Source: Shewanella colwelliana ATCC 39565 (lineage in GTDB: Bacteria; Pseudomonadota; Gammaproteobacteria; Enterobacterales; Shewanellaceae). Taken from it: 64,000 nucleotides of DNA. The stretch's first letter is position 1. Every line of letters begins with the position of its first letter. A program made the position numbers and the translations under genes. The stretch lies in assembly GCF_000518705.1 (NCBI RefSeq), contig NZ_JAEC01000013.1, forward strand, positions 62,001 through 126,000, in the 5' to 3' direction. This document shows positions 29,276 to 33,546 of this stretch, one piece after another. Below the pieces are notes generated by a model. That model made no database searches and was not told the origin of the DNA. It worked only from the letters and a program-made list of their open reading frames with translations.

Positions 29276-30127
29276 TTAAGACTGCATATTTAGCCCAGCT
29301 TGCTGATGCCAATAGCCGTTGCATTTTAGGGCGTCAGCGTTATCCGTTACCTTGCTTATATCATTGGCAATCTCGATTGATGCCATCGCGCTTGGCGACA
29401 CTCTAAAGTAGTCCACTCCCAGACCTTGCATAATGGCTTGTTGATCGCGAAGGTCACACAAACTGGCCGATTGAGTTTGAATGCCATTTAATCGCAGCAG
29501 CGGTTGCGCCTCTTGGGTTTGTGCTAACAAGCCTTTTGGGTGTTGAATACAAACGGTCTGGCACTTGTCCTTGGCCAGTCCCATATGTCTTGCGCTAAAG
29601 CAGCGTGCTGAATGGGCCAGTGGCATATATCCGTGACCAAAGACTTCGACTTCGACACGCTTTGGTGTCAATGCATCAACTACTGATACTAACCATTGCT
29701 GGGAGAGCTCAAGAGGCATGACAAATCGTTGCATCCCCCAAGTAGCGAGTTTGTTCAAGGTCGCCGCATTGTAGTTGTTTATGCTAGGGCCGCAAACGAA
29801 GGGCAGCCCATGACTTCTGGCCACTTCGACGGCACCCATATCATTGGCTTCAATGATAAACTCACCATTATCAACTTGCTTTTTAAGTTCACTAAACTCT
29901 GATTGTGCTTCGATAAGTGTCAGAGTAGAGATCACCACTTGCTTGCCTGAAGCTTTTAACTCCTTAGCAATTTGCAAATAGTCACTAAACTTCACTTCGC
30001 GACGGCGACTGCATACCGTCTCACCAACATAGACTAGCGGAATATCGCTATTGGCGACCGCTTGATAAAATTCGATAACTTGTGCTTTGGGCCAACAATA
30101 TAACAATGGGCCGAGGGATGTTTTCAT
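29276..30127 (-). CDS. ubiV: O2-independent ubiquinone hydroxylation protein UbiV (U32 family)
   Basis: The 283-residue U32-family partner of UbiU. UbiU and UbiV together carry out the hydroxylation steps of ubiquinone synthesis without oxygen, each using a 4Fe-4S cluster. The start 'LGPLLYCWPK', 'VYVGETVCSRRREVKFSDYL', 'GPSINNYN', 'VEVEVFGHGYMPLAHSARCFSARH' and 'KCQTVCIQHPKGL' match YhbV/UbiV. Cysteines suited to the cluster occur in 'GETVC', 'ARCFSAR' and 'CQTVC'. It follows ubiU by 16 bp with an AAGGA Shine-Dalgarno, so ubiUV is an operon. Confidence 0.94.
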   Translation of the reverse strand: MKTSLGPLLYCWPKAQVIEFYQAVANSDIPLVYVGETVCSRRREVKFSDYLQIAKELKASGKQVVISTLTLIEAQSEFSELKKQVDNGEFIIEANDMGAVEVARSHGLPFVCGPSINNYNAATLNKLATWGMQRFVMPLELSQQWLVSVVDALTPKRVEVEVFGHGYMPLAHSARCFSARHMGLAKDKCQTVCIQHPKGLLAQTQEAQPLLRLNGIQTQSASLCDLRDQQAIMQGLGVDYFRVSPSAMASIEIANDISKVTDNADALKCNGYWHQQAGLNMQS

Positions 30128-30143
30128 CGTCTGTCCTTATGGG

Positions 30144-31145
30144 CTATTGCCACGTGCGCTCGTAGGCACCTAGGGTAGTGATTTGACCTTCAGAAACTTT
30201 AGCCAGCGCATGCTCCCAACTGTCTTGGGTGCTAAATGCACTTGGGTTATTGAGGTAAGTATCGATAGCCTGTCGCCACACTCTAGTGACCTGCTCAACA
30301 TAAGCTGGGCTGCGTTGGCGTCCCTCGATTTTTAACGATACAACGTTCGCTTTAGCGAGTTCGGGTAGCAAACTGAGCGTGTTAAGGCTGGTGGGAGATT
30401 CCAATAGATAGCTAGGTTGGGGGTTCTCCTCTGTGGTGTATCGACCTTTGCAAACCACGGGATACCCCATCTGCTCATCAATATCAGATTGGTCGATTAA
30501 TACCTCATTGAGACGAGTCAGGCGACGATCGCCAACCTCTTGCCAGCGTACATCTTTAGCTGGCGAGCAGGAACCTCCGGTATTGGGAGATTGACCTGTC
30601 ACATAAGAGGAAAGGTGGCAACGACCTTCTGCCATAATGCAGAGGCTACCAAATGCGAACACTTCCAGGTCGACAGGGGTGACTTTGGCCAGATCTCTGA
30701 CCTGCTTCATTGATAGCACGCGCGGGAGTACGGCCCGTTCAATATTAAACTCTTTCTTATACAGCGTTAGCGCGCCAAGGTTGGTGGCACTGGCTTGTAC
30801 CGAGAGGTGCAGTGGCAGGTGAGGATAACGACTATGCGCGTAATCGAGCAGCGAAAGGTCGGCCATTATCAGTGCATCAACGCCAGTATTGGCGGCAAGA
30901 TCTATCGCTTGATACCAGCGCTGCTCTTCACCAGGTTTAGGGAAAGTATTAATGGTCAGGAAGATTTTTTTGCCTTGCTGCTTAGTATAGTCAACCGCCT
31001 GGGCAAGCTTCTTTGGCGTAAAATTTAAGCCAGCGAATGAACGAGCATTGGTGTCATCCTTTAAGCCTAAATAGATGGCATCGGCGCCAGCGTTAAGGGC
31101 GACTTTTAAGGATGCTAGGTTACCAGCGGGACACAGTAGTTCCAT
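30144..31145 (-). CDS. ubiU: O2-independent ubiquinone hydroxylation protein UbiU (U32 family)
   Basis: A 333-residue U32-family Fe-S protein forming a complex with UbiV. The N-terminus 'MELLCPAGNLASLKVAL', the hallmark 'GLKDDTNARSFAGLNF', 'SVQASATN', 'EVFAFGSLCIMAEGRCHLSSYVTG', and the end 'LGAYERTWQ' match YhbU/UbiU. The cluster cysteines are in 'SLCIMAEGRC', 'GGSCSP' and 'VVCKGRY'. I use the ATG at 31145 because it matches the family start; the longer frame to 31226 adds 27 unrelated residues. Divergent from ubiT across a 198-bp shared region. Confidence 0.95.
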   Translation of the reverse strand: MELLCPAGNLASLKVALNAGADAIYLGLKDDTNARSFAGLNFTPKKLAQAVDYTKQQGKKIFLTINTFPKPGEEQRWYQAIDLAANTGVDALIMADLSLLDYAHSRYPHLPLHLSVQASATNLGALTLYKKEFNIERAVLPRVLSMKQVRDLAKVTPVDLEVFAFGSLCIMAEGRCHLSSYVTGQSPNTGGSCSPAKDVRWQEVGDRRLTRLNEVLIDQSDIDEQMGYPVVCKGRYTTEENPQPSYLLESPTSLNTLSLLPELAKANVVSLKIEGRQRSPAYVEQVTRVWRQAIDTYLNNPSAFSTQDSWEHALAKVSEGQITTLGAYERTWQ

Positions 31146-31200
31146 TTTGAGGCGCTCTCTGAAAAATAGTGAAGTGTAAAAGGGTTTGGCAGAGAAAATC

Positions 31201-31214
31201 TTGATGTAAAACAG
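31201..31214. promoter_or_regulatory. Weak FNR/EtrA-like site between ubiU and ubiT
   Basis: TTGATGTAAAACAG matches the FNR consensus TTGAT-N4-ATCAA at 8 of 10 positions (left half perfect, right half 3/5). Anaerobic control of ubiTUV makes sense biologically, but the match is partial. Confidence 0.3.
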
Positions 31215-31291
31215 GTTTGTGATCATAAAAGCTGGTTAAAATTGCTTTCATTCTCAGTCTTGCTAATTTTGGCGGGACATTTCTTGAAAAT

Positions 31292-31320
31292 TTGAGTTGG
31301 TTCAACTCTTTCGAACTCAA
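31292..31320. repeat. Nested inverted repeats just upstream of ubiT
   Basis: GAGTTG (31294-31299) and CAACTC (31303-31308) form a 6-bp palindrome with a 3-nt centre. TTGAGTT (31292-31298) can instead pair with AACTCAA (31314-31320). They end 23 bp before the chosen ubiT start, so they could be an operator or a 5' RNA structure. Confidence 0.4.
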
Positions 31321-31856: not shown

Positions 31857-31870
31857 TGTGATTTTAAGGT

Positions 31871-31904
31871 AAAAAAAAGCGAAGTCGATGACTTCGCTTT
31901 TTTT
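31871..31904. terminator. Bidirectional terminator between ubiT and yfhL
   Basis: An 8-bp GC-containing stem (GCGAAGTC / GACTTCGC, 31879-31897, 3-nt loop) flanked by A7-8 on the left and T7 on the right. Works for both convergent genes. Confidence 0.9.
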
Positions 31905-31909
31905 AGTCG

Positions 31910-32167
31910 TTAGCTAATAGGCTTGCCAGTGATCAGGTGATATTTAACCAATAGCTCATCGTCAGATTCGACATGCTCGGGATCGGGGTCAATACAATCG
32001 ATAGGGCAAACCGATACGCAAGTGGGTTTGTCGTAATGACCGACACACTCTGTGCAGAGGTCTGGGTCAATTTCATAGATCTCTTCACCCATGGTGATGG
32101 CCTGATTTGGGCATTCAGGCTCACACATATCACAGTTAATGCAACTATCGTCGATCAGTAATGCCAT
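31910..32167 (-). CDS. yfhL: YfhL-type 2[4Fe-4S] ferredoxin
   Basis: An 85-residue ferredoxin of the Alvin/YfhL type. Cluster motifs are '[12 protein letters not shown]' (first CxxCxxC...CP), '[18 protein letters not shown]' with the characteristic insertion between cysteines, and a short acidic C-terminal extension. It carries low-potential electrons in the cytoplasm. It lies 14 bp downstream of trhP on the same strand, so the two are very likely co-transcribed, which suggests it is an electron partner for the U32 proteins nearby. Ends at a shared terminator. Confidence 0.93.
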
Positions 32168-32181
32168 GGTGTCAGGCCCAA

Positions 32182-33546
32182 TTATGCTGGAGTATGCGGA
32201 TTACGGGTATTCTGACCTTCGGTCAAATTACGCATCAATATTGCTTTGTCGATGTCGACCTCTTTAGGTACGGGCAAGAAGACAAAGTGTCCTGATCCTA
32301 GACCAGCTTCAACACTTTCACCCTTACGGTTTTCTAAATAATCGATAGTTAGATTGATATTACCTTGTGGCGTCATCAATTCAACACTGTCGCCAACAGA
32401 GAACTTGTTCTTTACATCGATTTCAGCCATGCCTTGTGCGTTACGCTTACCTGTCAGCTCGCCAACAAACTGTTGGGTGTCACTGATAGAATAACCATAG
32501 TCATAGTTTTGGTATTCGTCATGGACATGACGACGCAAGAACCCTTCTGTGTACCCTCGGTGTGCAAGCCCTTCCAGTTGGTACATCAGTGCTGGGTTAA
32601 ACTCACGTCCAGCAGCGGCATCTTCAATAGCTTGACGATAAAGCTGTGCTGTACGCGCGACATAATAGAAAGACTTGGTACGACCTTCGATTTTAAGTGA
32701 GTCGATGCCCATTTTGGTCAAACGCTCTACATGTTGAATCGCGCGTAGATCTTTAGAGTTCATGATATAAGTACCATGTTCATCTTCAAACGCTGGCATA
32801 TATTCGCCTGGACGACCCGCTTCTTGCAGTAAAACAATGTCACTGCTTGGCTCACCAGCCCCTAGTGTTGGGTTGTGTACTTGAACATCAGGGTTAACCG
32901 CGACAATGTCACCGGTTTCTGTTTGCATAGCTTCATGGGTATCGTACTTCCAACGGCAGGCATTGGTACAAGTCCCTTGGTTAGGATCGCGCTTATTAAT
33001 ATAGCCAGAAAGTAGGCAACGACCCGAGTAGGCCATGCATAGTGCACCGTGGACAAACACTTCTAGTTCGATATCGGGGCAACGCTGACGGATCTCTTCT
33101 ATCTCATCGAGCGAAAGCTCACGCGACAGAATGACACGCTTAATACCTTGTTGTTGCCAAAATTTCACCGAGGCCCAGTTGATCGCGTTTGCTTGCACTG
33201 AGAGATGCACGACTTGATCTGGAAATGCTTCACGTACCATCATAATCAGGCCTGGATCGGACATGATCAGCGCATCAGGCTGCATCGCCACTACAGGTTC
33301 CATATCTTTGATGTAAGTTTTGAGCTTAGTATTGTGCGGGGCAATGTTACTCACCACATACAACTTTTTACCTAAACTATGTGCTTCTTGAATCCCGGTA
33401 GCCAGGTTTTCCATTTTGAAGTCATTGTTACGCACACGCAGGCTATATCTCGGCTGGCCAGCATAGACAGCGTCGGCGCCATAAGCAAAGGCATAACGCA
33501 TATTTTTTAAGGTCCCAGCAGGAGACAGTAGCTCAGGTTTAAACAT
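32182..33546 (-). CDS. trhP: tRNA hydroxylation protein TrhP (YegQ, U32 family)
   Basis: A 454-residue U32-family Fe-S protein that makes 5-hydroxyuridine at tRNA position 34, using prephenate as the oxygen source, by family knowledge. It matches E. coli YegQ nearly end to end: '[20 protein letters not shown]', '[15 protein letters not shown]', '[20 protein letters not shown]', '[15 protein letters not shown]', and '[16 protein letters not shown]'. Cysteines suited to an Fe-S cluster are visible in the third and fourth segments. The ATG at 33546 has GAGAGA upstream and matches the family; the codon at 33558 would add four residues. Operon with yfhL. Confidence 0.95.

Follow-up and report, generated by a model that had tools for sequence, protein, structure and literature searches.

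Linked trhP-yfhL and ubiTUV genes in Shewanella colwelliana: co-occurrence and gene order place the ferredoxin YfhL with TrhP

Oxygen-independent hydroxylation by iron-sulphur (Fe-S) proteins of the U32 family has been described in Escherichia coli both for tRNA, with TrhP (YegQ), and for ubiquinone, with UbiU and UbiV. TrhP carries a [4Fe-4S] cluster (PMC11138216), its hydroxylation reaction depends on prephenate (PMC6599085), and its residues E162, C170 and C177 are essential (Sakai 2019); UbiU and UbiV also carry Fe-S clusters (PMC6747719). Here we analyse a stretch of 64,000 nucleotides from Shewanella colwelliana ATCC 39565 (contig NZ_JAEC01000013.1, positions 62,001 to 126,000), referred to below as the window, in which ubiV, ubiU, ubiT, yfhL and trhP are all present and intact within 4.3 kb (29276-33546), as a preliminary description of this DNA had read them. 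Each of the five proteins scores above the curated cut-off of its family. The features of this region are the following:

29276..30127, minus strand: ubiV, second gene of the ubiUV operon (NF047965, 357.6 bits against a cut-off of 275; cluster cysteines present)
30144..31145, minus strand: ubiU, first gene of the ubiUV operon (NF047963, 515.2 bits against a cut-off of 440; cluster cysteines present)
31201..31214: predicted Fnr/EtrA-type site, TTGATGTAAAACAG, upstream of ubiU and matching 11 of the 14 bases of the E. coli Fnr F1 site
31344..31856, plus strand: ubiT, SCP2-domain accessory factor (NF047962, 139.6 bits against a cut-off of 46.9; PF02036)
31872..31904, both strands: two-way intrinsic terminator, predicted from hairpin folding, between the convergent ubiT and yfhL
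31910..32167, minus strand: yfhL, Alvin-type very-low-potential 2[4Fe-4S] ferredoxin, second gene of the trhP-yfhL pair (NF033683, 136.1 bits against a cut-off of 86)
32182..33546, minus strand: trhP (yegQ), predicted prephenate-dependent tRNA U34 hydroxylase, first gene of the pair (NF011996, 833 bits against a cut-off of 534; PF01136 and PF16325)

TrhP and YfhL of the window match their E. coli counterparts at equivalog level and share the same essential cysteines. In TrhP, C170/C177/C193/C197 are kept, and in the alignment containing the window protein E162 is invariant, with C170 and C177 present too. The difference lies in gene order, since the two genes are apart in E. coli and paired in the window, where they stand beside ubiTUV; this trhP-yfhL adjacency is also found in Vibrio and Aeromonas. 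The three separate E. coli loci that had been stated for these genes were indeed found, with ubiT and ubiUV forming a single divergent locus in K-12. E. coli yegQ has no adjoining yfhL (strain R32_14_1F), a yfhL-trhP query matches two places per E. coli genome (median), and yfhL itself sits by acpS-pdxJ-recO (PMC2984482). The E. coli UbiTUV system (Pelosi 2019, Arias-Cartin 2023) resembles that of the window in the divergent orientation of ubiT and ubiUV, in the F1-type Fnr site and in its Fe-S ligands. UbiU and UbiV of the window reach their equivalog cut-offs and have four [4Fe-4S] cysteines each, UbiU keeping the E. coli ligands (C169/C176/C193/C232) and UbiV having C39/C176/C189/C193, which match C39/C180/C193/C197 of E. 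coli. In contrast, ubiT is followed by yhbS and ubiV by yhbW in E. coli, whereas the window has yfhL-trhP convergent to ubiT.

Alvin-type ferredoxins are defined by an insertion of 6-7 residues between two ligands, a tail of 27-43 residues and a length of at most 100 residues (PMC2984482). YfhL of the window agrees with this definition in insertion, tail and length: it has 85 residues, with C38, C41 and C50 among its ligands (assigned by motif) and 27-31 residues after C58/C54. The spacing of 8 residues between C41 and C50 and the C-terminal tail of about 30 residues are shared with the ferredoxin of A. vinosum, Fdx1 of P. aeruginosa and the benzoyl-CoA reductase ferredoxin of Thauera aromatica. 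Relatives in the PDB are 2zvs (E. coli YfhL), 1blu, 2fgo and 1rgv, and a sequence search of the PDB gave no match for TrhP, UbiU or UbiT. Very low reduction potentials are quoted for relatives of YfhL (PMC2984482). According to that paper, benzoate operons apart, these ferredoxins have no conserved gene context; in the window, and at 43 of the 80 named loci (see below), yfhL has trhP as its context. The yrrMNO operon of B. subtilis (TrhP1/TrhP2) likewise combines two U32 proteins, for 5-hydroxyuridine (ho5U) and 5-methoxyuridine (mo5U) (PMC6599085, PMC11574389), and differs in that neither ubiquinone genes nor a ferredoxin are mentioned for it in the available portions of these two papers.

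YfhL co-occurs with TrhP. In a sample of 299 genomes of the phylum, YfhL was found in 169, UbiU in 97 and TrhP in 113 (112 without a fragment below cut-off in G156), and YfhL was present in 105 of the 113 TrhP genomes. The association is also seen when the class is taken alone (Fisher p 0.0016); association tests here and below ignore relatedness, and adjacency counts in this sample are lower bounds, YfhL positions lacking for 22 genomes. The two genes are also neighbours in many genera. Among named loci, taken as the best 80 of 586 trhP loci by similarity to a TrhP of family f82 and thus unevenly sampled, 43 have yfhL no more than 700 bp from trhP, including Shewanella, Vibrio, Photobacterium, Aeromonas, Moritella, Colwellia and Alteromonas. 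Co-occurrence and adjacency thus support the placement of YfhL with TrhP, and this half of the cluster is known biology. Lauhon 2019 is reported to have shown that E. coli requires yfhL for ho5U just as much as it does yegQ.

Gene layout in the window points the same way. The yfhL start is separated from the trhP stop by 14 bp, the gap given in the preliminary description, while ubiT (plus) diverges from ubiUV (minus) and converges on yfhL (minus). Between ubiT and yfhL the hairpin at 31872-31904 has folding energies of -18.4 and -17.9 kcal/mol on the two strands (z -4.7 and -6.8), and none of 200 shuffles was equally stable. By layout and predicted terminator there are three transcription units, such that yfhL can share a transcript with trhP, and a shared transcript with ubiUV or ubiT is excluded. 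A single transcript for all five genes was ruled out by the same divergent and convergent arrangement together with the terminator. The start of ubiU was placed at the ATG at 31145-31143; a longer frame from 31226 would overrun the Fnr-type site.

We propose, with a probability of roughly 0.74, that the locus holds two neighbouring, separate oxygen-independent hydroxylation systems, that YfhL partners TrhP and also clients outside the U32 family, and that the linkage is inherited. The trhP and yfhL genes would form one operon in the window; TrhP would use prephenate to make ho5U at position 34 of tRNA, and YfhL would exchange electrons with TrhP, most likely by priming its cluster. UbiUV, with the divergently encoded UbiT, would make ubiquinone hydroxyls anaerobically under Fnr/EtrA control, generally independently of YfhL, which would have further clients of its own. 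The chromosomal linkage would be old and would have been inherited in Shewanellaceae, Moritella (f75) and f82, probably through inertia and perhaps aided by shared anaerobic use. In our reading, the very low potential of an Alvin-type ferredoxin would fit a priming donor for TrhP. We infer that YfhL could also be an acceptor: were prephenate merely to hand over its hydroxyl, electrons would be set free when a C-H bond is hydroxylated. Arias-Cartin 2023 suggests that the clusters carry electrons outward to a reductase (PMC10470549). YfhL is accordingly a putative donor.

The cluster is real, old and common to a few families. Families were labelled by DNA similarity: f1 is Shewanellaceae, f75 Moritella, f5 Vibrio and f91 Aeromonas and its kin, while f80 is nearest Agarivorans and f6 nearest Psychromonas. 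UbiU was found in 113 of 116 Shewanellaceae. For gene order in this family 40 loci were picked non-randomly, so as to cover genera and odd cases; trhP and ubiU lie at most 13 kb apart in 30 of them (10-13 kb in G325, G328 and G354), about 34-35 kb apart in G301 and G402, and far apart or on separate contigs in eight. One of these splits (G300) is uncertain, because its contig ends about 1 kb past ubiT. In 27 of the 40 loci all five genes lie together, spanning 19.5 kb at most, with identical order and relative orientation in every one of the 27. In the eight split loci, yfhL stays within 4.1 kb of trhP in seven and near ubiTUV in none.

Outside this family, linkage was followed in an order sample of 148 genomes, 86 of which have both UbiU and TrhP; 31 of the 86 pairs are on different contigs and were counted as unlinked, so that some links may be hidden. 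The two genes lie within 12 kb in 25 of the 86, where about 0.5 genomes would be expected if genes were placed at random in about 4.3 Mb (relatedness ignored). These are all ten of f1, all ten of f75, three of four in f82, the single f85 genome and one of five in f87; in f85 the order differs, as trhP comes after ubiV. At 50 kb the count rises to 38 of 86, adding f80 (7/8) and f6 (6/8), and no linkage within this distance was found in f5 (0/9), f91 (0/8), f93 (0/8), f4 (0/6) or f2 (0/3). Among the named loci, ubiU is within 10 kb of trhP in eight (six Shewanella, one Ferrimonas and one Moritella). A cluster unique to the window's genome, the outcome against which a survey of gene order had been called for, was therefore ruled out by its recurrence in Shewanellaceae, Moritella (f75) and f82.

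The explanation first offered for the clustering was that TrhP and UbiUV, as U32 hydroxylases, draw electrons from one common donor, YfhL; this now appears quite improbable. Clustering in several families with fixed order and orientation (Shewanellaceae; f75, f82) would suit it, and a number of observations weigh against our own proposal. Among genomes without TrhP, YfhL occurs in 35 of 54 with UbiU versus 29 of 132 without, a contrast that favours some link between YfhL and UbiU. In G301, yfhL adjoins ubiT while trhP lies about 33 kb off; in G422 yfhL is 2.5 kb from ubiT but 6.4 kb from trhP. YfhL is absent over cut-off in eight of the 113 TrhP genomes, G370 of the window's own genus lacks UbiU, TrhP and YfhL alike, and of the 27 Shewanellaceae loci with the whole set no more than 16 have a trhP-yfhL gap below 100 bp (above 3 kb in three), so that the operon is not fixed in this family. 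Still, of the 35 TrhP-less genomes with UbiU and YfhL, 26 lie outside the class, where a genuine link with UbiUV is possible, and within the class the contrast shrinks to 9 of 10 with UbiU versus 22 of 33 without (p 0.24). YfhL was not found over cut-off in 22 of the 97 UbiU genomes, 19 of which also lack TrhP, although three of the 22 have a weaker ferredoxin match (G026, G152, G237). Moreover, of the 29 genomes in which YfhL occurs without UbiU and without TrhP, 25 gave no U32 match (E<=1e-15), as is also the case in G299, which keeps YfhL. From these 25 it follows that YfhL has other work, in agreement with the P. aeruginosa ferredoxin of this type, encoded by an essential gene of housekeeping character (PMC2984482). 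Since YfhL is not present wherever UbiUV is, nor confined to genomes with U32 proteins, since it follows trhP in seven of the eight Shewanellaceae splits and ubiTUV in none, and since the layout bars its co-transcription with ubiUV or ubiT, its role as a general UbiUV partner is weakened and a shared donor is not supported as the reason for the clustering. The opposite view, that pure inertia makes the neighbourhood meaningless even for YfhL and TrhP, is barely credible. It would accommodate the many insertions and splits in Shewanellaceae (8/40 split) and the roughly 9 kb between yfhL and trhP in G236, but not the recurrence of trhP-yfhL adjacency over many genera, with a gap of about 10-60 bp in 14 of the 15 loci of one set that hold both genes, a proximity that outlasts seven of the eight splits, or the genetic finding attributed to Lauhon 2019.

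Regulation offers a further explanation. Fnr sites follow the consensus TTGAT-N4-ATCAA. If trhP-yfhL and ubiTUV were part of one anaerobic programme under Fnr, their proximity would reflect shared low-oxygen use and not a shared ferredoxin; we consider this unlikely, though worth weighing. In its favour, the F1-type site before ubiU is conserved: with the E. coli ubiUV site as reference (PMC10470549), at least 11 of 14 bases are matched in 39 of 48 loci, a score reached by at most 3.5% of single-base shuffles of the same 200 bases. As in E. coli, this candidate site lies between the divergent ubiT and ubiUV. For trhP, the 250 bp before the gene were scanned for at least 9 of 10 consensus bases, with 19 permuted palindromes as control, in 94 of 109 loci (14 Shewanellaceae loci without trhP or with too little upstream DNA were dropped, as was L069). 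Candidate sites were identified in 22 of the 94 loci; the permuted palindromes averaged 1.4 and reached 7 at most, and about 5 would be expected from the 14 such sites in the 64 kb of the window. They are concentrated in f75 (5/5), f82 (2/3), f2 (7/9), f8 (3/4) and f4 (3/6). In contrast, only one of 27 Shewanellaceae promoters has a site, versus 21 of 67 loci outside the family, and none was found in f5 (0/4), f80 (0/5), f6 (0/6), f87 (0/4) or f91 (0/4). The named sample has a site at 6 of 80 trhP loci, versus about 4 expected from window density, and before trhP of the window itself there is none, the best match having 7 of 10 bases. In f2, moreover, the site is frequent, yet the genes are linked in none of three genomes. 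Most f2 loci and all three f8 loci with a site have a divergent upstream frame, so that either gene could own it. The upstream frame runs with trhP in three f4 loci, one f75, one f2 and probably f21 (a crude test by longest open frame), which implies that there the candidate site belongs to trhP. Fnr control of trhP is accordingly a prediction for certain lineages and not for the window. The wider combination, in which the linked U32 hydroxylases for ubiquinone and tRNA would form one anaerobic unit in a group of marine Gammaproteobacteria, Fnr-controlled in some lineages and with YfhL exchanging electrons with both TrhP and UbiUV, is very improbable. The conservation of the E. coli ubiUV site before ubiU and the Fnr-type sites before trhP in some other families, both predicted from sequence, appear to be new; a literature search, with most subscription papers outside it, returned nothing on the cluster or on regulation of trhP by Fnr.

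A replacement ferredoxin was sought in genomes without YfhL. A scan for the motif CxxCxxCxxxC in 20 loci (trhP in seven of the eight YfhL-less TrhP genomes and ubiUV in 13 of the 22 YfhL-less UbiU genomes) gave one match only, in an open reading frame of 260 residues in L110, and an alternative ferredoxin beside trhP or ubiUV was rejected on this basis. Two genomes of family f47 (G039 and G241) have TrhP proteins of more than 810 bits with neither YfhL nor a nearby ferredoxin motif, and their TrhP may use another redox partner. In genus g40, G133 and G159 have TrhP and UbiU without YfhL, and G070 has YfhL without either.

Two further genes border the region in the window:

28578..29273, plus strand: small membrane protein without family match, adjoining ubiV downstream in many Shewanellaceae (f1) loci
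33837..34679, plus strand: HDOD-domain gene (PF08668), divergent from trhP and adjoining it in many Shewanellaceae (f1) loci

The small membrane gene is probably not part of the ubi/trhP set in function, and the HDOD gene is probably unrelated to the neighbouring trhP. In G370 an open frame of 5,097 residues, perhaps a large synthetase, stands beside the HDOD gene (L265, 2127-17417) where trhP-yfhL-ubiTUV would be expected; loss of the whole set by one replacement event would be consistent with this. Next to ubiT, G328 carries an additional yfhL copy that has decayed and contains a stop codon (L023, C12:666827-667042), the intact yfhL being by trhP about 10 kb off, and in G354 ubiU is interrupted by a frame change and an internal stop (L059, C1:3489719-3490567). 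The window's genome encodes two further U32 proteins. One, of 641 residues, we take from its size to be RlhA-like; the other, of 768 residues (G000:C25, about 43.9-46.2 kb, locus L004), is unlike TrhP, UbiU and UbiV in size, and U32 proteins in open frames of 756-814 residues also occur in G370, G218 and G286. Over the whole window, Fnr/Crp-type palindromes with at most 2 mismatches number 83, versus 44 in shuffles.

Which redox partner the U32 hydroxylases use, and in which direction electrons flow, are questions raised in PMC10470549 and PMC11574389. With regard to the former, the present survey directs YfhL to TrhP and to clients outside the U32 family, and away from a general partnership with UbiUV. 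In Moritella and some Alteromonadaceae, trhP may be under the control of Fnr; if true, this would tie tRNA wobble modification to oxygen.

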